A stretch of DNA of 38,509 bases from an uncultured Flavobacteriaceae bacterium (GTDB taxonomy: Bacteria > Bacteroidota > Bacteroidia > Flavobacteriales > Flavobacteriaceae): positions 1 through 38,509 of the forward strand of contig CAJVZM010000004.1 of assembly GCA_913020475.1 (NCBI GenBank), read 5' to 3'. The position numbers and the translations under genes were made by a program. The notes below the pieces were generated by a model that saw nothing but the letters and a program-made list of their open reading frames with translations, did no database searches and was not told the origin of the DNA. This document shows positions 1 to 36,412 of the stretch, in pieces; positions within the stretch are counted from its first letter, which is position 1, and each line of letters begins with the position of its first letter.

Positions 1-869
1 GTGAAGCATTGGCTACATTGGTTGTAAATAAACTAAGAGGTGCACTTAAAATCGCAGCTGTCAAGGCTCCAGGTTTTGGTGATCGAAGAAAAGCAATGCT
101 TGAAGACATCGCCATCTTGACGGGTGGAACGGTGATTTCTGAGGAAAGAGGTTTTACACTAGAAAACACCACCATTGATATGTTGGGCTCTGCTGAAAAA
201 GTAACAATTGATAAAGATAATACTACGGTAGTTAATGGTGCAGGTGAAAGTAAAATGATCCAAGGAAGGGTTAATCAAATTAAATCACAAATTGAGACAA
301 CAACCTCTGACTATGATAGAGAAAAACTTCAAGAGCGTTTAGCCAAACTATCTGGAGGAGTAGCAGTTCTTTATGTAGGAGCCCCCTCAGAAGTTGAAAT
401 GAAAGAAAAGAAAGACCGTGTAGACGATGCACTTCATGCCACCAGAGCAGCTGTAGAAGAAGGCATTGTTGCCGGTGGTGGTGTTGCGCTATTGAGTACC
501 CAAAAAAGTCTTTCAAAACTTAAACCTGACAATGCTGACGAAGGTACAGGTGTTCAAATCATCAACAAAGCAATCGAATCCCCGTTGAGAACCATAGTCG
601 AAAACTCCGGTGGTGAGGGATCAGTTGTTGTATCCAAGGTACTTGAGGGTAAGGAAAACTTCGGTTTCAACGCTAAAGAAGGCACTTTTGTGGACATGCT
701 AAAAGAAGGAATTATTGATCCCAAAAAAGTTGCTCGTGTTGCTTTAGAAAATGCTGCTTCAGTCGCAGGAATGATTCTAACCACAGAGTGTGCTTTAGTC
801 GACATCAAAGAAGACGCTCCAGCCATGCCTCCAATGGGCGGCGGCGGCGGAATGCCCGGAATGATGTAA
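1..869 (+). CDS. groEL: Chaperonin GroEL (60 kDa), 5'-truncated by window edge
   Basis: ATP-driven folding chamber of the cytosol, working with GroES. The reading frame is already open at base 1 (first full codon at base 3), so the N-terminal part lies outside the window. The visible part covers the rest of the apical, intermediate and equatorial domains. It opens with the apical [17 protein letters not shown] segment, continues through the intermediate-domain sequence around [19 protein letters not shown], and ends in the typical Gly/Met-rich tail [10 protein letters not shown]. Stop TAA at 867-869. The 288 visible codons are intact with no frameshift. groES is expected just upstream, outside the window. 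A strong terminator follows. The identification is secure; only the missing start limits it. Confidence 0.98.
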
Positions 870-893
870 TCTATTCTATTGTTGTCTGTAATA

Positions 894-922
894 AAAACCT
901 GCTTTTCAAGCAGGTTTTTTTA
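894..922 (+). terminator. Rho-independent terminator after groEL
   Basis: A perfect 9-bp stem (896-904 paired with 908-916, sequence AACCTGCTT / AAGCAGGTT) with a 3-base loop is followed by a run of T. An A-run precedes the stem, so it could also serve the convergent metal cassette ending at 927. It lies 25 bases after the groEL stop. Confidence 0.9.
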
Positions 923-926
923 TTTA

Positions 927-1265
927 TCATTCTTTCCTATCGTACTGGCAACAGATGGGAAGGTCATAATAAGATTTCTCCTTGGCTTTGACCTCAGAGG
1001 TGTCATGTCCTTGGGCTGCAATAACAGTATGAATTTTTTCCAAATCTACTTTTCTAGGATCATATATTAAGCTAATTTGATTGGAGGGAATGTCCCAGTC
1101 GGCCAACTTTACCCCTTTTAAGTATAAGGCTGCTTTTTCAATTCTCTTTTCACACATTTCACAGTTTCCGTTAACCACAAATTGTACTTTTATACTCTTT
1201 TTCTTTTTGTCTTGAGAAACCATTACTAATGGTAATACAAATAAGATTATTAGGATTTTTTTCAT
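927..1265 (-). CDS. Secreted heavy-metal-associated (HMA) domain protein
   Basis: Small exported metal-binding protein, 112 residues from the chosen start. MKKILIILFVLPLVMVSQ is a clean signal peptide, so the protein acts in the periplasm or on the surface. The mature part is a single ferredoxin-like HMA fold whose metal motif reads NGNCEMCEKRIEKAA, the CxxC of copper chaperones. A second Cys pair (ICC) lies near the C-terminus. An in-frame ATG at 1283 shares its A with the stop of the upstream receptor gene (TAATG), so MINLYIMKK is an alternative start; the internal Met gives the better signal peptide. It is the last gene of the four-gene cassette that starts at 4710. Copper is the likeliest metal by family, but the sequence does not prove it. 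Confidence 0.85.
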   Translation of the reverse strand: MKKILIILFVLPLVMVSQDKKKKSIKVQFVVNGNCEMCEKRIEKAALYLKGVKLADWDIPSNQISLIYDPRKVDLEKIHTVIAAQGHDTSEVKAKEKSYYDLPICCQYDRKE

Positions 1266-1282
1266 TATATACAAATTGATCA

Positions 1283-3508
1283 TTAAATTTTAATTCGTAA
1301 ACCAGAATAAACCATTCCCCCAAAAATAGGTGCATAAACTTGAGCCGCATCAAAGTCAGCTCCAAAAGGATCCTTAGATCCAATAATGGGAGACAGCTGT
1401 TTGTAATTTCCTATGTTTACGCCACCCAAATAAATTTCAAATTTTTTCGAGAACAAATAAGTCAACTGTGTGTTCCACAACGAATAATTAGGTGAAAAAC
1501 CTCCAGGACGATCGATGAGATTGTGAACCAATCGCTGTGCCCCAACATAATTATAGGTGAGATCATATCGCCATTGTTTTCCCCCTGTAGTGGTTTTGCT
1601 TTCCCAACCCAAATTGACAAAAAAGCGATTCTTGGCCAATAACGGCTTTTCTAAAAAGCCATTTTTGTAGTCCATTTTAACGTCGTAATTTTTATATGCA
1701 GCTCTGAAATTAAAAAAGTTTCGATAATAATAATCCAATTCTATTTGAAAACTTTTTGCAGCACTCTCCCCTTCTAAATTGTAAAAAGAAACTTCACGCG
1801 GCTTTTCGAGGTCCACCAACACTTGGTTGATAAAGTTAGTTATATAGTAATCGGCAGATAGGTTAATTTGGTGGGAATTTCTGATGAAAAACGATTTGGA
1901 AAGACCCAATCCATAGTTCCACGCTTTTTCAGGATCAAGTCCGTAAATTTTACCCAAAGAGGATTGGATAGTTATAGACCTATTAGTCGCAAAAAGAGTT
2001 TGATTTTCTGCAAAAATATTAGCTGCTTTTCTGCCACTCCCCGCTGATAACCTTATGACAAATTTATCAAAGGGTACATATCTAAGATGTAACCTAGGGG
2101 TAAAAAACCTTCCTAAATTATTGTGGAAATCCAAACGGATACCGGTTATCAAACTAAAGTTATCATTGTTGTCATGGCTAAACTCAAAAAAGCTGCCCAC
2201 ATTTCGATCCGTCCTACCGAATATATCACCATCAACCTGTTCAACGTAGTCATCAAAACTATAGTTTAAACCTACTTTAAATTTATTTAGGGTGCTGCCT
2301 ATTATGGAGTTGAAAATTAAATTCATGTAAGAACTATCTTGGCTGATGTCATAAGTTCGCAATCCATAATAAGAATCTTGATCGTGACTGCTATAGGCTG
2401 TTTGAAAACCAAAACTTTGATAGGGCTTTTTAGGAAAAACATAGCCCAACTTATATGAGCATTCCAATCGTTTTGTTTTAATTTCACTGCCCCAGCGATA
2501 TTTTATTCCCCGATCTATTTCAGGGTTAAAGTTTAAAGTTCCAGATAGTTTTTCATCTTTCATATACCTCCAACTCAAAAAACTGACCCATCCCTTATCC
2601 ATATCCGTATGTTGCCAACGGTTCATCACATTGATTTGTTTTGAAACAGGAAGATCCAAAAAACCATCATTGTTGTTGTCGAACTTTTGATTTCTTTTAT
2701 TCCAGTGAATATACAGGCCTGTACTCCATTTTTCACTGACTTTTTTATTAAAATGCGTATTCATTTCATACCTGCCATTAATGGAGCTGAATAGATTGAG
2801 AAAAAAGGGAATATCGTTGCTTGGCTTTTTCAATTCGGTATTAATTTGTCCTACAATACTTTCAAACCCATTGGTTACTGACCCTACCCCTTTGCTGATT
2901 TGAATACTTTCTACCCAGGTTCCCGGTGTAAAGGTCAATCCATAGGCCTGTGAGGCACCGCGAACTATGGGAATATTTTCTTCCGAAATCAATAAGTAAG
3001 GGCTCGAAAGCCCCAACATTTTGATTTGTTTGGTTCCAGTAAGTGCATCTGCAAAATTTACATCTATAATCGGATTGGTTTCAAAACTTTCTGAAAGATT
3101 ACAACAAGCCGCTTTTAGCAATTCTTCATTACTAACCTTTAGGACGTTTTGCGTCTCGATGAAAGACTTTTGAGAAGCTTTCTGAACTTGAGTGAGAGTG
3201 ACCTCGTCCAATTCATCATCCTGATTTTGGATCATTTTATAAGATATAAAAGGAGTTTTTATTTTTAATGTATCAGTCTTAAAACCGACATAACTTATAA
3301 TTAATAAATCCGTTTCAGGTATTCTTTCCATCTGGAAAGTACCTTTCTCATCCGTAACCGTTCCGATAGTAGTATTTTGCCAAAAAACATTGGCTCCGGT
3401 CAGGGGATATGTTTTATTATTTTCTTGATATTGTACAATTCCATTTAGAGAGTCTTGTGAAAAGACAACGCCACACGAAATACATACAATAAATATGTGT
3501 TTTATCAT
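1283..3508 (-). CDS. TonB-dependent outer-membrane receptor, probable copper/metal receptor
   Basis: Outer-membrane receptor of 741 residues that would import its ligand with TonB-ExbBD energy. A signal peptide (about 1-17) is followed by a carboxypeptidase-regulatory-like beta-sandwich (about 21-85, SYVGFKT at its end), a plug domain (about 120-235, with VESIQISKGVGSVTNGFES) and a long beta-barrel. An unusual Cys pair, C135-C136 in AACCNLSESFETNP, sits at the start of the plug. No SusD partner lies nearby, so it is not a typical polysaccharide receptor. Its neighbours are HMA proteins on one side and a HYC_CC_PP protein on the other, which points to metal, most plausibly copper. Stop and next start overlap as TAATG, so translation of the downstream HMA gene is probably coupled. 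Confidence 0.9.
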   Translation of the reverse strand: MIKHIFIVCISCGVVFSQDSLNGIVQYQENNKTYPLTGANVFWQNTTIGTVTDEKGTFQMERIPETDLLIISYVGFKTDTLKIKTPFISYKMIQNQDDELDEVTLTQVQKASQKSFIETQNVLKVSNEELLKAACCNLSESFETNPIIDVNFADALTGTKQIKMLGLSSPYLLISEENIPIVRGASQAYGLTFTPGTWVESIQISKGVGSVTNGFESIVGQINTELKKPSNDIPFFLNLFSSINGRYEMNTHFNKKVSEKWSTGLYIHWNKRNQKFDNNNDGFLDLPVSKQINVMNRWQHTDMDKGWVSFLSWRYMKDEKLSGTLNFNPEIDRGIKYRWGSEIKTKRLECSYKLGYVFPKKPYQSFGFQTAYSSHDQDSYYGLRTYDISQDSSYMNLIFNSIIGSTLNKFKVGLNYSFDDYVEQVDGDIFGRTDRNVGSFFEFSHDNNDNFSLITGIRLDFHNNLGRFFTPRLHLRYVPFDKFVIRLSAGSGRKAANIFAENQTLFATNRSITIQSSLGKIYGLDPEKAWNYGLGLSKSFFIRNSHQINLSADYYITNFINQVLVDLEKPREVSFYNLEGESAAKSFQIELDYYYRNFFNFRAAYKNYDVKMDYKNGFLEKPLLAKNRFFVNLGWESKTTTGGKQWRYDLTYNYVGAQRLVHNLIDRPGGFSPNYSLWNTQLTYLFSKKFEIYLGGVNIGNYKQLSPIIGSKDPFGADFDAAQVYAPIFGGMVYSGLRIKI

Positions 3509-3558
3509 GATTTTAGGGTTAGATTCAATGTTAAAGAAGAAGCGTATTTAAACTCGAA

Positions 3559-3972
3559 TCAACCGTAAAAAATAAAGCTTTGATATAATATGAAGATTTT
3601 TTCCCTTGAAACTCGAGGTTTAGGTTGGGTAAAAACCGTCTTTAAAAAGATGGTTTTAGAGGCTTTAAATTGGAAGGGTTTGTTTGATGAAAATCCAATA
3701 TATTCAAGCTGAATTTCGTGATCAATATTTTGTTGAGGTTCGTTATTTTGGATAAAAATGGTTTGATCCTGACAGCAGTGCTTTTTTGTAAAGTTAAAGC
3801 CCTGATGTGAGTCCTGGGATTTTTCCAAGGGCATTCCACAACCCACGGCATTCCAGGCCAGAACAATTCCCTCAATGTATCCTCCACAATAGTGAACATT
3901 CAAAGCCACCCCGATTTTTGAAGTTAAAAAAATCAAGGCAAAGAAAACGGCTTTAAAATTCTTTACATTCAT
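3559..3972 (-). CDS. HYC_CC_PP family protein (small cysteine/histidine-rich secreted protein)
   Basis: 137 residues of unknown biochemical function. The N-terminus looks like a signal peptide (about 1-23). The mature part starts with the HYCGGYI motif, then has a CGMP stretch, a KHCCQDQ pair in the middle and a conserved-looking end (QPKPR, SFIFYG). This is the layout of the Bacteroidota family named after its HYC, CC and PP motifs; here the PP motif is relaxed to PKP. Members tend to accompany TonB receptors and HMA proteins, as here. The His and Cys residues could bind a soft metal, which is inference. It lies 50 bases upstream of the receptor in the same direction and is probably co-transcribed. 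Confidence 0.75.
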   Translation of the reverse strand: MNVKNFKAVFFALIFLTSKIGVALNVHYCGGYIEGIVLAWNAVGCGMPLEKSQDSHQGFNFTKKHCCQDQTIFIQNNEPQQNIDHEIQLEYIGFSSNKPFQFKASKTIFLKTVFTQPKPRVSREKIFILYQSFIFYG

Positions 3973-3999
3973 AGTATAAATCTAAGGATTTTATAAGAA

Positions 4000-4710
4000 T
4001 CAATTAAGTAACATGGCCACTGCCATAACAAGCATGAGTATATTTTCTATCAACGTTGCCTCGGTCATGGGTAACTTCAAAGCAGTTCCCAAACAGGCAC
4101 AATCGATTCTATTTTTATCAAAAAGGGAATAAACTACACCAACGGTGGTGATAGATAAGATTATAATGGTGGCAATGAAAGCAAAATTCAACTGCCAGCG
4201 CATCAATAACATCAAACCTAAAACGGTCTCAATAAAAGGGTAGGCATTACCGTAAAGATTACTTCTTTTGGCCAATGGATCATATTGAGCAAATACAGAG
4301 GGAAATCCCTTGTAATCCAAAAATTTAAAAAAACTGAAAACCACAAAAAACAGACCCATAAAATCAATCATAAAATTGGTAATACGTAAGGTGTTTTTTT
4401 GTAAAAGTACAGCGCCCACAACCAAGTAAACAAAAATTAAAAAAAGAGGATAGAGTTGTTTTAATTTTGAAGTAGACTCCGTCATAGGAAAGCTATTATC
4501 ACTTTTCGATTCAAATGAAGGAATGTATTTTGGAAATAATACCTCTGAGAGGTTTTTCAACGTTTGTATTTTTAAGACCTCCATCTCGACACTTCCGCTG
4601 GCCAAATCAATTTTGAGATCTTCTACCTGATCCAGTCCGATCAATTTTTCAGTCACAGAGGTAACACAACTTTCACAAGTCATCCCAGAAATTTTTATAT
4701 TTTGTTTCAT
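4000..4710 (-). CDS. HMA domain fused to MauE/DoxX-like membrane protein
   Basis: 236 residues in two parts. Residues 1-65 are a cytosolic HMA domain with the canonical GMTCESC metal motif. After a short linker come four hydrophobic spans (about 85-235) resembling MauE/DoxX-type redox membrane proteins, with a DCACLG Cys pair near the end of the third and fourth spans. The fusion suggests a membrane protein that receives or hands over a metal ion, or reduces a metal-bearing cysteine site. MauE relatives are linked to periplasmic disulfide chemistry, so a redox role is also possible. It is the first gene of the cassette and lies divergent from purH. Confidence 0.8.
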   Translation of the reverse strand: MKQNIKISGMTCESCVTSVTEKLIGLDQVEDLKIDLASGSVEMEVLKIQTLKNLSEVLFPKYIPSFESKSDNSFPMTESTSKLKQLYPLFLIFVYLVVGAVLLQKNTLRITNFMIDFMGLFFVVFSFFKFLDYKGFPSVFAQYDPLAKRSNLYGNAYPFIETVLGLMLLMRWQLNFAFIATIIILSITTVGVVYSLFDKNRIDCACLGTALKLPMTEATLIENILMLVMAVAMLLN

Positions 4711-4807
4711 TGTTGAAAAGTGGGCTTTTTTTGGTTAATTAAACCCTGTAAATAAGGGAAAAATTAAGTTTTTACAATCATGTTTTTAATACTTTTGTCA
4801 AATTAAA

Positions 4808-4815
4808 TAGTTTTG
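4808..4815 (+). promoter_or_regulatory. Possible -7 promoter element for purH
   Basis: TAGTTTTG fits the Bacteroidota -7 consensus TANNTTTG and lies about 90 bases before the purH start. There is no good TTTG at the usual distance of about 19-20 bases upstream, only a T-rich stretch near 4784-4788, so the call is tentative. Confidence 0.3.
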
Positions 4816-4905
4816 TTTAAAGTAAAATTAGTTAAAAAAATGCATCTGTGTCAAATCAAAAAAATCAATTCCCCAATTAAATATTCATCGAATAAGAAAA
4901 AATAA

Positions 4906-6429
4906 ATGAGTAAAAAACAAATTTTATCTGCTCTCATCTCTGTTTTCGACAAAACAGGATTGGATCCCATCATTCATAAATTAAATTCATATGGGGTTAC
5001 CCTCTACTCCACCGGTGGTACAGAAAAATTTATTCGCGATTTGGGCTACGATGTTATCGCTGTTGAGGATTTAACTGGATATCCCTCAATTTTGGGGGGT
5101 CGGGTAAAAACACTACATCCTAAGGTTTTTGGTGGAATTTTGAACCGCCAAGAAATTTCGGATGACCAAACCGCTTTAGAGCAATTTGAAATACCACAGA
5201 TCGATTTGGTCATCGTGGATTTATATCCTTTTGAAGATACTGTTGCCGCAGGTGGGAGTGAACAAGAAATTGTAGAAAAAATAGATATCGGAGGAATTGC
5301 ACTTATAAGAGCTGCCGCTAAAAATTTTATGGATACTTTCTGCGTTTCTGATAAAGAAGATTACTATGATTTTATGGATATTCTTACCGAATCTAATGGT
5401 GCACCCAATATAGAACAAAGGAAAAGATATTCCGTCAAAGCTTTCCAAACCTCTTCCCACTATGATGCAGCCATTTTTAACTATTTCAACCAAGAAGAGG
5501 AGGTGCTAAAATTGAGTGTAAAGGATCCCAAAACCCTCCGTTATGGAGAAAATCCTCATCAAAAAGGTCAATTTTTTGGTCTATTATCCGACCTTCTAGA
5601 GCAAGTTCATGGGAAAGAAATTTCGTATAACAACCTTTTGGACATCGATGCAGCAGTAAATCTCATGCTCGAATTTTATGAAGGTAATTGCAGCTTTGCC
5701 ATCCTCAAACACAATAATGCATGTGGGTTTGCTACACGCTCCACCCTCAAAGAAGCATACGTTGATGCTCTTGCTGGGGACCCTGTATCCGCTTTTGGAG
5801 GAGTATTGATTACCAATAAAACTATTGACTTAGATACGGCCAATGAAATCGATAGCCTGTTTTGCGAAGTGGTAATCGCTCCCAATTACCAGGAGAACGC
5901 CTTAGAGCTTTTGAAACGAAAAAAGAACAGAATATTACTAATTCAAAAAGATATCCCGCTCTCCTCCACAACCATTAGAAGCTGCCTCAACGGTATACTA
6001 GTTCAGGACAGAGATTCAAAAACAGATATTGCGGAAGAACTCAAATTTGTGACTTTCAACAAACCAAACTCGCAAGAGATTAAGGATTTGATTTTTGCCT
6101 CTAAAATTTGTAAACACACCAAATCAAATACCATTGTTTTGGCGAAAAATGGTCAACTACTAGCCTCTGGAACGGGTCAAACCTCGAGAGTAGACGCATT
6201 AAATCATGCCATTGAAAAAGCCAAACACTTCAATTTTGACCTAAACAGTGCCGTAATGGCAAGTGATGCTTTTTTTCCATTCCCCGATTGTGTGGAGATC
6301 GCTCACATGGCCGGGGTCAAAAGTATACTTCAGCCAGGAGGATCTGTCAAAGACCAACTTTCCATAGATTATTGCAACGAAAATAATTTATCTATGGTCT
6401 TTACAGGTACGCGTCATTTTAAGCATTAA
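4906..6429 (+). CDS. purH: Bifunctional AICAR transformylase / IMP cyclohydrolase
   Basis: Catalyses the last two steps of purine synthesis: formylation of AICAR with 10-formyl-THF, then ring closure to IMP. The protein has 507 residues, normal for the family. The N-terminal MGS-like cyclohydrolase domain (about 1-150) contains LYSTGGTEKFIRDLGY and GGRVKTLHPKVFGG. The transformylase domain follows, with the catalytic Lys-His pair in KHNNACG (K268, H269). It ends with DAFFPFPDCVE and FTGTRHFKH, typical of the family's C-terminus. The ATG is preceded by an A-rich stretch rather than a Shine-Dalgarno site. It is followed by mreB after 36 bases, so the cell-shape genes may be partly transcribed with it. 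Confidence 0.98.
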   Translation: MSKKQILSALISVFDKTGLDPIIHKLNSYGVTLYSTGGTEKFIRDLGYDVIAVEDLTGYPSILGGRVKTLHPKVFGGILNRQEISDDQTALEQFEIPQIDLVIVDLYPFEDTVAAGGSEQEIVEKIDIGGIALIRAAAKNFMDTFCVSDKEDYYDFMDILTESNGAPNIEQRKRYSVKAFQTSSHYDAAIFNYFNQEEEVLKLSVKDPKTLRYGENPHQKGQFFGLLSDLLEQVHGKEISYNNLLDIDAAVNLMLEFYEGNCSFAILKHNNACGFATRSTLKEAYVDALAGDPVSAFGGVLITNKTIDLDTANEIDSLFCEVVIAPNYQENALELLKRKKNRILLIQKDIPLSSTTIRSCLNGILVQDRDSKTDIAEELKFVTFNKPNSQEIKDLIFASKICKHTKSNTIVLAKNGQLLASGTGQTSRVDALNHAIEKAKHFNFDLNSAVMASDAFFPFPDCVEIAHMAGVKSILQPGGSVKDQLSIDYCNENNLSMVFTGTRHFKH

Positions 6430-31713: not shown

Positions 31714-33030
31714 TTAAAATTCGAAATTATTATCAATCAACATTGCTGAACCAAGGGCGCAAGAATATGATGATGGTTTAGATTTGATTTTTTGATCAGG
31801 AAATTTCCTTTTCAAGATTTCTATAAAAATATTATTATCACAAAACCCACCGTCTACATAAATATATTTTGGTAGGATTTCACAAATAACATTAATCTGA
31901 TTTTGAAGTAATTCAACTAGCTCCTTAATTAATTGATAATAAGCAATTTCAAATTTAGAGAAATCCAAATCATCATAATTAGGGGCAGAACTATTATCTA
32001 AATACTTCCAATGAAAGCAATTTTTTGATTTTTTTAATACTTTTTTTAAAATTATATGATCAAATTTTAACTCGCGATGATAAAACTTTGGAAGGTTAAA
32101 CTGATTTATTAATTTTTGAACTTTCAGTCTGTGTTCTTCTCCTAAAAACAAACGTGAAGATTTCACGGGACTCCCGTCTATTTTCATGTAAGCAGTAGCA
32201 CCTGCCTTGATCTGGTTTAAATTAAATATGCTATCTCTAGTGAATGGGTTAAAATTGATACACCAAGTTCCTGTTGATAAAAGTAGAAAAGAGTCCTTGC
32301 CCATTAAAAGGTAGGTCAATAAAGCGGCGGAGCTATCATGAATTCCTATACCAAAAGTTATTTTTCTAGAGCCAAATTTTTTGATGACTGTTGTTTGTGT
32401 TTTTACAATTGGGGGGAAAAGGCTATCCAAACTTTCAGCTTCAACCCAATGATGATATTTTTTTTTTTGAAAATCCCAAAGATCTGTATGGCATCCTATG
32501 CTGGTATATTCAGAGTACATCTTTCCAGTAAAAACATAACTTAGGTACTGAGATAAATGAAGGGTTTTATGAATTTTTTTGAAAATTTCTGGACGTTTAT
32601 GTTTCAACCAGTAAAGTTGTTTTCCAGAGTTTAGAAAATTTAAGTTTTTCGAACCGGTCTGAACAATAAAAGAAGACTCAGGACCATAATCACGGAAAAA
32701 TGGAATTAAGGTATCTGCCTCAAAAGTCTTATGATAATCATATACTGATGATGCAAGATTACCTTCTTTATCTAAGTGAACCATAGTAGCCCCAAAACCA
32801 CAAAAATTCACTTTTTCAATTTGAAATTTTTTTGATAATAGTAAAATTTCGAAGGACGCTTTCATCCAAGACACAATTGCTTTTATATCCTCAGCAATGT
32901 GACCATCCTCGTCCTCTATTTTGGGAATTGAGATTTTAGTTCTAGCTAAAATCTTATAGTTTTTATCAAAAACAAAATATTTTTGGTTGGTCTTGCCAAT
33001 ATCAAATACTAAACAACAATTTAATTTCAT
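31714..33030 (-). CDS. rhaB: FGGY-family carbohydrate kinase, probable L-rhamnulokinase
   Basis: 438 residues. Likely phosphorylates L-rhamnulose to L-rhamnulose 1-phosphate. The N-terminal phosphate loop reads CLVFDIGKTNQKYFVFD, an FGGY variant; GFGATMVHLD, GIGIHDSSAALLTYL, LLSTGTWCINF and YVDGGFCDNN follow in FGGY order. The end PSSYSCALGSAMLI matches the family's ALGAA motif. Its start shares one base with the isomerase stop (TAATG), so it is translationally coupled. It is visibly richer in A/T than its partner genes (13 G/C in 32041-32100 against 26 in 34141-34200, in the isomerase). No frameshift is seen. Confidence 0.8.
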   Translation of the reverse strand: MKLNCCLVFDIGKTNQKYFVFDKNYKILARTKISIPKIEDEDGHIAEDIKAIVSWMKASFEILLLSKKFQIEKVNFCGFGATMVHLDKEGNLASSVYDYHKTFEADTLIPFFRDYGPESSFIVQTGSKNLNFLNSGKQLYWLKHKRPEIFKKIHKTLHLSQYLSYVFTGKMYSEYTSIGCHTDLWDFQKKKYHHWVEAESLDSLFPPIVKTQTTVIKKFGSRKITFGIGIHDSSAALLTYLLMGKDSFLLLSTGTWCINFNPFTRDSIFNLNQIKAGATAYMKIDGSPVKSSRLFLGEEHRLKVQKLINQFNLPKFYHRELKFDHIILKKVLKKSKNCFHWKYLDNSSAPNYDDLDFSKFEIAYYQLIKELVELLQNQINVICEILPKYIYVDGGFCDNNIFIEILKRKFPDQKIKSKPSSYSCALGSAMLIDNNFEF

Positions 33031-34304
33031 TAAAGTCCGCTTGATTTTGAATCTAGTCCACGAGTGGCAATTAGTTTTTTGCGAACATTTAAATCACGAT
33101 AAGCAGCAAGTGAATCCAATGCGCCACCCCTTTGGTAAATAGCTTCTTTAACCAATGGTCTAACATCAGTCCTGAAGGCATCTTGAAGAACAGACTGGGA
33201 AGTCGCAACATCATTTTGTGCTTGGGCGTCTTTCAATTGATTATAATCCACGATTAAAGCTCTTGCGTAAGCAATTTTTATACTTTCTACTGATTGGAGT
33301 AAATCTTCCATAGGGTCTTTGAGGTTATGACTTGCATCGATCATCCAAGAGGGTTCTGGATTCAAGGTTTCACGCATTCCTTGAACTAGTTCGCAAAAAA
33401 TAAGAAACAATTGATAAGGTTTGATTGCCCCAACAGTAAGATCATCATCTCCGTATTTACTATCATTGAAATGGAATCCACCTAGTTTATTAATATGCAT
33501 TAATAACGAAACAATCTGTTCAACATTGGTATTTGGCAGATGGTGACCTAAATCAACTAATGTACTTGCCTGATCACCTAATTTTGAGGCAAGTAAGTGG
33601 GAAGTTCCCCAGTCAGGGATTACCATAGAATAAAAATTTGGTTCATAAGGTTTATACTCAATTAGTAATTTCCAATCAGAGGGTAAATGATCATAAATTT
33701 CCTTAAGAGAGTCCAATGTTCTTTGAAACGCACCTCGAAAGTTGTGTTGACCTGCAAATGAGCTACCATCTGCCAACCAAACCGTCAATGCTTTAGAACC
33801 CAATTCTACCCCATGATCAATTACCTCTTTATTGTGTTGAATGGCCTCTTTTCTCACTTCTGGATCAATGTGAGACAATGATCCAAATTTATAGGAATGA
33901 ACATTGTTGGTCTGATCCTGAAAAGTATTGGAATTAACCGCATCGAATTTAATGTCCAATTCATTGGCTAAAGTCTTTATGGCAGTGAAGTCCTTAGGGA
34001 TGTCCCATGGGATGTGAAGACTGACTGCGCCACTGGACTTGTTGAGGGTGTGAAGAACACCAATATCTTTAATCTTATTCACTAGGTTAGAGGGTTCACC
34101 ACCTTCAGGAAACCTACCAAAACGGGTACCTCCTGTTCCCAAGGCCCAACTGGGAATTGCAACCTGGAAATCACCGATTTCATTTAGGATCTTATCCACA
34201 TCAATTCCTTTATGGTTAAGTGATTCCGATAAAAAACCCCAATGCTTCTGATGGTCAAGTAATCTTTCTTTATTAAAGGCCTTTACTCTATTTGGATCAA
34301 CCAT
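33030..34304 (-). CDS. rhaI: L-rhamnose isomerase (RhaI type)
   Basis: Interconverts L-rhamnose and L-rhamnulose. 424 residues, the size of the Pseudomonas stutzeri-type enzyme and not the E. coli RhaA type. TIM-barrel signatures: IPSWALGTGGTRFGRFPEGG near the N-terminus, AVSLHIPWDIP, LTVWLADGSSFAGQHNFRGA, LLIEYKPYEPNFYSMVIPDWG, and the metal-binding strands VDLGHHLPNTNVEQI and GFHFNDSKYGDDDLTVG. All expected metal ligands (E, D, H, D) are present. It lies 11 bases after the aldolase/dehydrogenase gene and is coupled to the kinase. Confidence 0.92.
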   Translation of the reverse strand: MVDPNRVKAFNKERLLDHQKHWGFLSESLNHKGIDVDKILNEIGDFQVAIPSWALGTGGTRFGRFPEGGEPSNLVNKIKDIGVLHTLNKSSGAVSLHIPWDIPKDFTAIKTLANELDIKFDAVNSNTFQDQTNNVHSYKFGSLSHIDPEVRKEAIQHNKEVIDHGVELGSKALTVWLADGSSFAGQHNFRGAFQRTLDSLKEIYDHLPSDWKLLIEYKPYEPNFYSMVIPDWGTSHLLASKLGDQASTLVDLGHHLPNTNVEQIVSLLMHINKLGGFHFNDSKYGDDDLTVGAIKPYQLFLIFCELVQGMRETLNPEPSWMIDASHNLKDPMEDLLQSVESIKIAYARALIVDYNQLKDAQAQNDVATSQSVLQDAFRTDVRPLVKEAIYQRGGALDSLAAYRDLNVRKKLIATRGLDSKSSGL

Positions 34305-34315
34305 AATTCTATTTT

Positions 34316-36412
34316 CTATCTAACAAAGGCATTAGCAACACCTCCATCAACATTAATAATATTGCCTGTACTTTTGTCTAAAATGGCCAAAAAGGAAAAT
34401 ACTGCATTTGCAATGTCATAGGGTCGGATGATCTGATTCAAAAGATTTCTTTTGGCATAAAAAGCAGGTAACTCCTCCACAGAAATCCCATAAGCTTTTG
34501 CGCGACCTTCTGCCCAATCACCCTCCCAAATTTTACTGCCAATAATTACCCCATCAGGGTTTACAGTATTTACTCGAATACTGTCCGAAGCCAATTCTGT
34601 AGCCAACAGTCTTGACATGTGCATTTGTGCTGCTTTGGCAGAACCATAGGCAACGTTGTTGGGTCCAGAAACCAATCCATTTTTACTTACTATATTAATA
34701 ATGTCCCCACCCTTATTTTGTTTTTTCATAATATTGGCAGCCACTTTTGACAACATGAATTGTCCTTTGACCAATACATCATGAAGTAAATCCCAATCAG
34801 CTTGGGTGGTGTCGGCCAAAGTTTTGGAAATGGCTAGACCAGCACTGTTAACTATAATGTCTATACCACCGAATTGTAAGCAAGCCTCTTTTACTGCTGC
34901 TTCAATACTCTGTATTTTGGTTACATCGCAATGGAAACCTATCGCTTGATCGGAATGGTAGGCTTTGGTAGCTTCATTTAGGTATTCCTTTGAGATATCG
35001 GTAAATAAAACATTTGCTCCCTCTAAAATTAACTTATCGGCAATGGCTCTTCCAATTCCTCCTCCAGATCCAGTGACCAGAGCAACTTTCCTTGAGAGAG
35101 GTTTTTCTTTAGGTTGTCTCTGTAGTTTGGCCTCTTCCAACAACCAGTATTCAATGTCAAATGCCTCTTGGCGTGGTAATGAGGTATATTTTGAAATTGC
35201 TTCTGCACCTCGCATTACATTGATGGCATTGATGTAAAATTCACTTGCAACTCTTGCTGTTTGTTTATTTTTGGCAAAAGTGAACATTCCCACCCCAGGA
35301 TATAAAATAACCACAGGATTGGAGTCCCTTATTACGGGGCTATTCTTGTGCTTACAGGCATCATAATAGTCCTGGTATTCTTTTCGAAACTTCAATATTG
35401 AATTGGATAATTTATCGAAAATATTTTGGTTATCAGATAAATCTTCATCAGGTGATAATTCTAGTATTAATGGTTTAATTTTTGTTCTTAAGAAATGGTC
35501 GGGACAAGAGGTACCCATCGGAGTCAAACGTTCCAAATCATTGGAGTTGATATATTCTAATACTTTATCGTCATCAGTGAAATGACCAATCATGGAGTTT
35601 TCAGAGGAACACAAACCTCTCAAAATAGGAGCCAATTGAGCTGCTTTATTCTTTCTCTCATCGGAGGATAAGCTTTTAATTTTTTCTCCTCCAAATACAC
35701 TTCCATTTTTGGCAATTTGATCCTCAATGTATTGAGAAGCTTCTTCAATCACCTCTAGGCTATTGATATAACACTCATAGGACGTTTCACCCCAAGTAAA
35801 TAGACCATGACTGCCCAAAACAATCCCTTTAATACCTTGGTTTTCATTTAAACAGACTTCCAATTGCAATCCCAAATCGAAACCAGGACGCTGCCATGGA
35901 ACCCATCCCATAGAATCTCCCCAAATTTCTTTAGTAATTTTTTTACTATCTTTTGCTGCTGCAATGGCTATTAAAGCATCTGGGTGTAAATGATCTATAT
36001 GTTTAAAGGGAAGTAACCCATGAAGAGGGGTGTCAATAGAGGGAGCCCTGCTGTCAAGATCATAGATACAATGATTGAAAAGAGCAACCATTTCATCCTC
36101 ATACTCTAAACCACGGTACACTTTTTTTAGATCGTGAAGCCTTTGATTATATAAACCTGCGATGCCATCTCTCTTTAGGGTTCCAATATCACCTCCAGAG
36201 CCTTTAATCCACATAACCTCAACATTTTCTCTGGTTAAAGGGTCCTTTTCCATTACTTTACAACTGGTATTACCCCCTCCGTAGTTGGTAATTCTTAGAT
36301 CGGCTCCTAATATATTTGAACGATACAAAAAAAGTTCTAATTCATTCCCTCGTAATTCTCTAGCTTTTTTATCGTCCCACAGATAATCAACGTGCTTAAA
36401 TTTCTTGACCAT
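34316..36412 (-). CDS. rhaD: Bifunctional rhamnulose-1-phosphate aldolase / short-chain dehydrogenase
   Basis: 698-residue fusion. Residues about 20-400 are a class II aldolase domain (GGGNTSCKV, the zinc site around FKHIDHLHPDALIAIAA, and GIVLGSHGLFTWG) that splits rhamnulose 1-phosphate into DHAP and L-lactaldehyde. Residues about 430-698 are a short-chain dehydrogenase with the NAD motif VTGSGGGIGRA and the catalytic Y-x-x-x-K in YGSAKAA, which would oxidise or reduce the lactaldehyde. This is the known fused enzyme of Bacteroidota and Bacillus-type rhamnose operons. It is the first gene of the three-gene operon. Complete, without stops. Confidence 0.94.
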   Translation of the reverse strand: MVKKFKHVDYLWDDKKARELRGNELELFLYRSNILGADLRITNYGGGNTSCKVMEKDPLTRENVEVMWIKGSGGDIGTLKRDGIAGLYNQRLHDLKKVYRGLEYEDEMVALFNHCIYDLDSRAPSIDTPLHGLLPFKHIDHLHPDALIAIAAAKDSKKITKEIWGDSMGWVPWQRPGFDLGLQLEVCLNENQGIKGIVLGSHGLFTWGETSYECYINSLEVIEEASQYIEDQIAKNGSVFGGEKIKSLSSDERKNKAAQLAPILRGLCSSENSMIGHFTDDDKVLEYINSNDLERLTPMGTSCPDHFLRTKIKPLILELSPDEDLSDNQNIFDKLSNSILKFRKEYQDYYDACKHKNSPVIRDSNPVVILYPGVGMFTFAKNKQTARVASEFYINAINVMRGAEAISKYTSLPRQEAFDIEYWLLEEAKLQRQPKEKPLSRKVALVTGSGGGIGRAIADKLILEGANVLFTDISKEYLNEATKAYHSDQAIGFHCDVTKIQSIEAAVKEACLQFGGIDIIVNSAGLAISKTLADTTQADWDLLHDVLVKGQFMLSKVAANIMKKQNKGGDIINIVSKNGLVSGPNNVAYGSAKAAQMHMSRLLATELASDSIRVNTVNPDGVIIGSKIWEGDWAEGRAKAYGISVEELPAFYAKRNLLNQIIRPYDIANAVFSFLAILDKSTGNIINVDGGVANAFVR

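Follow-up and report, generated by a model that had tools for sequence, protein, structure and literature searches.

The window, by which we mean the whole stretch of 38,509 nucleotides (nt) analysed here, lies on contig CAJVZM010000004.1 of a draft genome from an uncultured Flavobacteriaceae bacterium (GCA_913020475.1), which is 1.5 Mb in size and about 80% complete. Near its start, four minus-strand open reading frames (ORFs) follow one another head to tail from 4710 to 927 as a single operon and encode HMA-MauE, a HYC_CC_PP family protein, a TonB-dependent receptor and a secreted HMA protein (Table 1). Our computations establish this operon and its conservation, natural fusions between two of its products, and a hairpin with co-varying arms between the HYC_CC_PP gene and the receptor gene. 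All four genes lie where an earlier sequence-only reading of this DNA had placed them, and the gene order, short gaps, TAATG overlap and cysteine (Cys) motifs that it had listed were all found, namely CESC and DCAC in HMA-MauE, HYC and CC in HYC_CC_PP, C135-C136 in the receptor, and CEMC and a CC near the end in the secreted HMA protein. The four-span protein that it had seen behind the first HMA domain also agrees with hydropathy, which gives four hydrophobic regions in HMA-MauE. HMA-MauE and HYC_CC_PP are separated by 27 nt and HYC_CC_PP and the receptor by 50 nt, and the overlap between the receptor and secreted HMA genes is 1 nt.

Table 1. Operon, hairpin and flanking features in the window
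Feature	Position	Strand	Details
HMA-MauE	4710-4000	-	236 amino acids (aa); HMA 1.3e-8, MauE 3.4e-20
HYC_CC_PP family protein	3972-3559	-	137 aa; 53.4 bits vs cut-off 28
Hairpin	3570-3511	-	5' arm 3570-3547, 3' arm 3535-3511; -13.1 kcal/mol, z -3.6
TonB-dependent receptor, CarboxypepD_reg-like domain then plug	3508-1283	-	741 aa
Secreted HMA protein; CEMC, GHDT, C-terminal CC	1283-927	-	118 aa; HMA 2.1e-6
Terminator-like stem between chaperonin-like gene and convergent operon end	893-919	+	consensus match only
Chaperonin gene, groEL-like (flank)	9-869	+	named from sequence by eye
purH-like gene (flank)	4906-6429	+	named from sequence by eye

Two samples underlie the counts given below. The 80 named relatives are the best 80 of 587 confirmed; they were found with peptide patterns containing the receptor motif and are biased to near relatives. 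The phylum sample comprises 148 Bacteroidota genomes, the window's own genome included, and was searched with a receptor profile at a threshold of E 1e-60, which matched in 53 of the 148; at most 7 receptor candidates were scored per genome, and receptors may have been missed. From this sample, 35 receptors above 490 bits from other genomes were fetched, together with 5 of the roughly 33 lower-scoring ones. Membership of a transcription unit in relatives was called by us, and the HMA-MauE model was built on Flavobacteriaceae. Among the 80 relatives, the unit contains the secreted HMA gene in 78, HYC_CC_PP in 69, HMA-MauE in 27 and a Cu-type ATPase in 7. At the 35 phylum loci, the HYC_CC_PP model is matched in 19, HYC_CC_PP or another small Cys-rich ORF is found in 30, and the secreted HMA gene in 19. 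These counts and the recurring synteny bear out the conserved cassette of the sequence-only reading, whose members co-occur across the genomes of both sets. Since the synteny recurs in many genera, the cassette is not a product of chance. The neighbours recur as well, with a GAF protein in 69/80 relatives, purH in 61/80 and groEL in 59/80 (clusters identified by eye), and therefore the genomic place of the cassette is conserved too. Within the window's genus, a receptor-clade match is present in 18 of 21 other genomes, and all four genes are kept in the window and at L008-L013, L015-L017, L020 and L021; L014 holds a HYC_CC_PP fragment only, and L022, L026 and L036 are truncated by the ends of their contigs.

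The gap behind HYC_CC_PP is long as a rule, with a median of 74 nt, and measures 30 nt or less in 1/86 cases. Gaps of 30 nt or less occur at 61/89 junctions from the receptor to the secreted HMA gene, 20/23 from HMA-MauE to the receptor and 8/10 from the secreted HMA gene to the receptor. The window's gap forms part of a hairpin that the sequence-only reading did not mention. Its 5' arm is made of the last three HYC_CC_PP codons, the stop codon (3561-3559) and 12 further bases, 2 nt separate the end of its 3' arm from the receptor ATG (3508-3506), and only 1 of 200 shuffles folded as well. An Rfam search of window positions 900-4900 returned three matches with E of 1.6 to 10, none reaching the gathering score.

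Folding of this kind recurs in the relatives. The median folding z of 85 HYC_CC_PP gaps (30-200 nt) is -3.13, and z lies below -2 in 68 of them, compared with a median of -1.16 and 10/28 below -2 for gaps between the receptor and the secreted HMA gene, and a median of -0.61 and 11/36 for other junctions, some of which are in fact small Cys-rich leaders. The related sequences are not independent, so that p values for gap folding overstate the difference. A stem of 8 or more pairs closes the gap in 75/85 HYC_CC_PP cases vs 39% of shuffles; the controls show such a stem in 5/28 receptor-to-secreted-HMA gaps (shuffles 27%) and 7/36 other junctions (shuffles 34%). The stop codon lies inside the stem in 69/85 HYC_CC_PP gaps vs 27% of shuffles, and the gap's own arms outpair 95% of arms swapped between loci in 45/85, as against 3/28 and 3/36 of the controls. 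When ten sequences of the genus are compared, 86% of cells pair in the hairpin structure vs 29-55% when it is slid, a comparison that favours the hairpin over the slid versions because its structure was drawn from one of the ten. In the same ten sequences, 12 cells are changed on both sides vs 5.1 expected (0/500 shuffles). We conclude that the hairpin is conserved with co-varying arms, and as a prediction it matches the shielding stem-loop of CutF-like leaders, which are described below.

Stems are also found behind other leaders. Small Cys-rich ORFs that the HYC_CC_PP model does not label precede the same receptor at further loci, where the closing stem reaches 8 or more pairs in 12/15 folded gaps and takes in the stop codon in 11/15; L028 and L185 in this set come from one genome, and a further gap, 15 nt long, was left unfolded. 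Some of these ORFs match the NCBIfam HYC_CC_PP model weakly, and in those of L185, L187 and L198 three residues follow QPP before the stop, an ending very similar to the RAPP of CruR. Among the loci of a HYC_CC_PP family search (L146-L175), 29 gaps were folded, 12 of which lead into CusA/CzcA-type genes (assigned by motif, with a model check on five). In these 12, z is below -2 in 10/12 and a closing stem is present in 10/12 vs 31% of shuffles, and some of the genomes also carry a receptor with the AACC motif at a separate locus. As stems are found ahead of both the receptor and the CusA-type genes, the HYC_CC_PP leader with its hairpin stands before importer-type and exporter-type genes.

The HYC_CC_PP protein of the window scores well above the cut-off of its family (NF047658; Table 1). 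It has a hydrophobic, signal-like N-terminal segment (judged by hydropathy, with no signal-peptide program), H27/C29, C45, C66-C67, a PKP and a conserved C-terminal tail. The residues H27, C29, C45, C66 and C67 and one proline are invariant in 35 aligned sequences, and conservation of the tail extends as far as the stop codon. In 86 of 91 proteins (5 were dropped, PP or CC not being measurable), the spacing from CC to PP is 54-56 residues in 63/86, and PP is followed by 15 or 16 residues in 61/86 and by 12 in 15/86. The AlphaFold2 model has a mean pLDDT (predicted local distance difference test) of 59 and is not usable for a metal site. Features by which CutF-like leaders are recognised are present, with a length of 137 aa (below 150), the signal-like segment, the potential metal residues H27/C29/C45/C66/C67 and a same-strand receptor gene 50 nt downstream. 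Membership of DUF2946, the family of CutF and CruR, was rejected for lack of a Pfam model match; among the HYC-like relatives, DUF6660 in L034 (E 0.017) is the sole weak family match of note.

CutF and CruR are the nearest analogues, and they respond to copper in opposite senses. In the part of the CutF paper considered here, the CutF of Rhodobacter capsulatus is a small exported Cys protein with C-terminal prolines, encoded directly upstream of the copper gene cutO, the start of which is shielded by a stem-loop (PMC9973294). CutF itself is a DUF2946 protein and raises a multicopper oxidase with copper (PMC9973294), whereas HYC_CC_PP has no DUF2946 match, another Cys pattern and a tail running past PP. 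According to the survey in that paper, many CutF-like proteins exist in Bacteroidota, and CusA-, CusC- and TonB-type neighbours occur over all phyla; gap lengths are measured, and the stem-loop tests, in the sections covered, are confined to R. capsulatus (PMC9973294). A CutF-like class in Bacteroidota is therefore already recognised, as far as these sections go. The CruR of Bordetella pertussis, acting on bfrG/crtA, is described in the portions consulted as a copper-sensing upstream ORF with a Cys motif and a C-terminal arrest motif, which precedes a copper TonB-dependent transporter and is followed by a long gap (PMC9426467, PMC12914433). It differs in working through Rho-dependent termination, and among CrtA orthologues neither Cys nor Met is conserved, while an invariant CC marks the plug in the receptor clade of the window (PMC9426467, PMC12914433). 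Arrest-peptide papers, as far as their text was covered, name CruR and CutF, and one of them reports Bacteroidota leaders upstream of secDF; another, within the part considered, detects no RAPP/RGPP leader at copper-related genes of Bacteroidota, in keeping with another arrest motif in HYC_CC_PP, or none.

The receptor has the plug and beta-barrel of a TonB-dependent receptor, its plug match of 22.6 bits being just under the cut-off of 23.9. The plug begins with ELLKAACCNLSESFET, and the codons of C135-C136 lie at 3106-3101; the pair belongs to the motif ELxKAACC, is followed by NLSESFETN and has no Met four residues beyond either Cys. In the predicted structure, the strand-rich barrel has a pLDDT mostly above 70 and the plug one of about 30-40, at which the position of the Cys pair is unreadable. 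Foldseek matches include Cir, BtuB, XusA and, from rank 29 on, OprC; among sequences of solved structures, the matches are SusC/RagA, colicin I, enterobactin and other receptors, and OprC is not among them. The CC is present at the plug position in 35/35 receptors above 490 bits from other genomes, so that the pair, which had been singled out as a natural metal gate, is indeed kept in orthologues. This unselected count carries the point, since 141 receptors used for a list of conserved Met and His were picked by their ACC motif and are uninformative on CC. All five lower-scoring receptors that were fetched have CxxC instead of CC.

Two known types of copper receptor were tried and rejected. 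OprC of Pseudomonas aeruginosa is likewise a TonB-dependent receptor that takes up copper, going by the part of the source covered (PMC8610252); it is marked by CxxxM-HxM (PMC11213822, in part), in place of which the window receptor has ELxKAACC, CxxxM is absent from the plug, and no OprC-named model was matched at E up to 10. The CrtA type, the orthologues of which have no conserved Cys, is at odds with the CC in 35/35 fetched receptors; no search was made for PepSY_TM, the usual neighbour of crtA. A paralogous receptor of the own genome (L003 1360-3606, on C19) has CxxC (NCSIC) in place of CC and adjoins a DtxR/MntR-type metal regulator. Further CxxC receptors resembling it occur in L211-L215, and it is possible that they form a sister clade handling another metal. 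In L023 and L026 (G018, G019), L040 and L207, the receptor genes are broken by stops or frameshifts, and other genomes hold intact copies. The NCBIfam database also contains models of TonB-dependent receptors whose names refer to CU, FCYXU and PCPU motifs, in which U stands for selenocysteine, and the CC of the window receptor might be a cysteine version of one of these motifs.

Natural fusions and a shared operon (78/80 relatives and 19/35 phylum loci) both link the secreted HMA protein with the receptor. In five other genomes (G025, G028, G133, G129 and G041), the HMA protein is fused to the receptor N terminus, four of these cases being among the 35 phylum loci and the fifth being L027; the fusions of G028 and G133 contain two HMA domains. 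Variants of the cassette were also seen. The own genome has a second one on C88 (L002 3-3426), in which a receptor with the AACC motif lies beside two secreted HMA genes; L092, L099 and L100 are further cassettes of this kind, and L002 and L092 also encode a downstream lipoprotein-like protein with a WAYSTAAPS motif. An extended operon at L048 2730-10652, found in L056 and L094 too, consists of HYC_CC_PP, a 256-aa protein, a double-HMA secreted protein, a 277-aa lipoprotein-like protein, a Cu ATPase, the receptor and a secreted HMA gene.

Copper, which the sequence-only reading had named, is likely the metal of the cassette and the best supported one, judging from the Cu(I)-type P1B ATPase in the operons of relatives. 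Such an ATPase precedes the receptor in 7/80 relatives and in L024, with the motifs CPC, N(x6)YN and MxxSS; the Cu-type motifs (YN, MxxSS) are present in 8/8 ATPases examined, and the TIGR01511 copper ATPase model (cut-off 397) gave 592 bits for two full-length ATPases and 510 for the partial one of L024. At one of these ATPase loci, L102, a DUF326 gene follows the secreted HMA gene, and DUF326 proteins store copper. HMA-MauE and the P1B ATPase occur together in one unit in 0/80 relatives, L057 being cut close upstream of the ATPase. In the window's genus, a TIGR01511 match at 1e-30 is absent from 21/22 genomes (drafts, 65-99% complete), and the one in the remaining genome stays below the cut-off; a genus without this ATPase would be unusual, if the absence is real and not due to incomplete drafts. 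The own genome carries COX1, a copper user. Because ATPase units come without HMA-MauE and all but one of the genus drafts come without a TIGR01511 match, HMA-MauE may stand in for the ATPase, as this pattern of co-occurrence suggests. HMA-MauE is found at 1/35 phylum loci as compared with 27/80 relatives, the model having been built on the family of the window; since it is optional, the earlier claim of a route ending at the cytosolic HMA domain is doubtful as an obligatory one.

With these observations, we lean slightly towards reading the operon as one for copper acquisition, in which the receptor would be under translational control by the HYC_CC_PP leader. The sequence-only reading had given HYC_CC_PP a place in a metal relay; the length of the gap behind it, the co-varying hairpin over the stop codon and the recurrence before CusA-type genes argue for a leader regulator instead. 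The receptor would import copper, as ion or chelate, across the outer membrane. The plug Cys pair and the periplasmic partner HMA protein would receive Cu(I) and hand it over, for example to a heme-copper oxidase, and HMA-MauE would be an optional inner-membrane copper handler, replaced in the operons of some other genera by a Cu(I) P1B ATPase. HYC_CC_PP, which is small and exported and has invariant Cys and His residues and a conserved C-terminal tail, would chiefly be a sensor and not a carrier. The hairpin, which includes the HYC_CC_PP stop codon, would hide the receptor start; on the model of CutF and CruR, a ribosome that pauses where HYC_CC_PP ends would prevent the hairpin from closing and so permit translation of the receptor, and copper binding to the nascent chain would alter the pausing. 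The expected sign would be that the receptor, as an importer, is made when copper is scarce, as with CruR, and that cusA behaves in the opposite way, as with CutF. More tentatively, and with rather less than even confidence, we suggest that HYC_CC_PP may form a class of switches, spread across the phylum Bacteroidota, in which the nascent chain senses copper, with a sequence distinct from that of DUF2946 and with the hairpin on its own stop codon; this class would stand before both copper import operons (receptors with AACC) and copper export operons (CusA) and be read with opposite outcomes. The copper receptor that it would gate here would be of a third kind, with an HMA domain, sometimes tethered to the receptor, serving the vicinal Cys pair of the plug.

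Several results weigh against this reading. In the ten genus sequences, pairs changed on both sides (75/500 shuffles) and further pair types (334/500) are not in excess, and RNAalifold gives -2.96 kcal/mol with an unfavourable covariation term; because RNAalifold is weak on this alignment, support for the hairpin was drawn from shuffles, swapped arms and slid structures. Among the HYC_CC_PP gaps, 17/85 have z of -2 or above, and length-matched gaps between the receptor and the secreted HMA gene fold moderately too (median z -2.04, 7/14 below -2). The window protein has PKP at 117-119 of 137 where most relatives have PP, and in the 22-residue tails of this genus PP occurs only in L010 and L012, which makes a Pro-Pro arrest doubtful for this protein and its genus. 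In the relatives, the conserved tail mostly runs 12-16 residues past PP, unlike the near-terminal RAPP of CruR; together with the PKP of the window, this suggests that any pause sits at the tail or the stop codon. No DUF2946 match was obtained for the window HYC_CC_PP (E up to 1), 6 HYC-like relatives or 8 other leaders (E up to 10). HMA-MauE precedes HYC_CC_PP in the window, so that HYC_CC_PP is not the first gene of the operon. Three of the 21 other genus drafts (G001, G004 and G006) have no match to an AACC-type receptor, their best scores being near 180-210 bits, and L018, L019 and L023 of the same genus carry the receptor with no HYC_CC_PP match. As to the metal, HMA domains bind other soft metals too and alone do not decide it, matches to the CopZ and MerTP models are below their cut-offs, and the CusA/CzcA model matched by the genes behind other HYC_CC_PP copies covers several metals.

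The relay itself is unlikely to be the better explanation. HYC_CC_PP would then be a stable periplasmic Cu(I)-binding protein between the receptor and HMA-MauE, and the hairpin would be incidental. The five invariant Cys and His residues could make a Cu(I) site in a mature protein, and the signal-like segment is in keeping with one, but the conserved, co-varying hairpin, the copies before CusA-type genes at loci without the receptor and the tail conserved up to the stop argue against it; the low pLDDT of HYC_CC_PP fits a poorly structured protein and proves nothing. About as improbable, in our view, is that the hairpin is an element of mRNA processing or stability, or a means of plain translational coupling, with no metal sensing by the nascent HYC_CC_PP chain. 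Stem-loops between operon genes can set expression ratios, which is established knowledge, PP is absent from the window protein, and arrest is proposed by analogy. The invariant Cys/His residues, the near-fixed spacings from CC to PP and from PP to the end, and the repeated association with copper-type genes nevertheless suggest sensing. Less likely still is a cassette that handles a soft metal other than copper (Hg, Ag, Zn or Cd), or a chelated metal, in detoxification or scavenging, for which HMA domains not exclusive to copper and weak matches to MerTP and mercuric reductase models could be quoted, but these matches are far below the cut-offs, and the Cu(I) signature in the ATPase of some relatives' operons and the DUF326 neighbour in L102 point to copper. 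MerT/MerP mercury uptake combines a periplasmic HMA protein with a membrane protein, some with an HMA domain of its own; as a model for the window cassette, of which an outer-membrane receptor is the central part, it was rejected, MerTP scoring 25.4 and 21.4 bits vs a cut-off of 180.

Among the matches listed in a literature search, no titles or abstract openings describe this cassette, and outer-membrane copper uptake in Bacteroidota is represented by just one proposal of an OprC-like receptor, in one species, made in the part covered of a paper on copper in Flavobacteriaceae (PMC11213822). If the leader reading is true, it would add a receptor clade and its periplasmic acceptor, and it would recast HYC_CC_PP as a copper sensor that acts during its own translation. 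One type of leader would then stand before an importer and an exporter, which provides a sharp test. Elsewhere in the window, three minus-strand genes at 31714-36412 resemble a sugar kinase, an isomerase and an aldolase/dehydrogenase, of the rhamnose type by eye.

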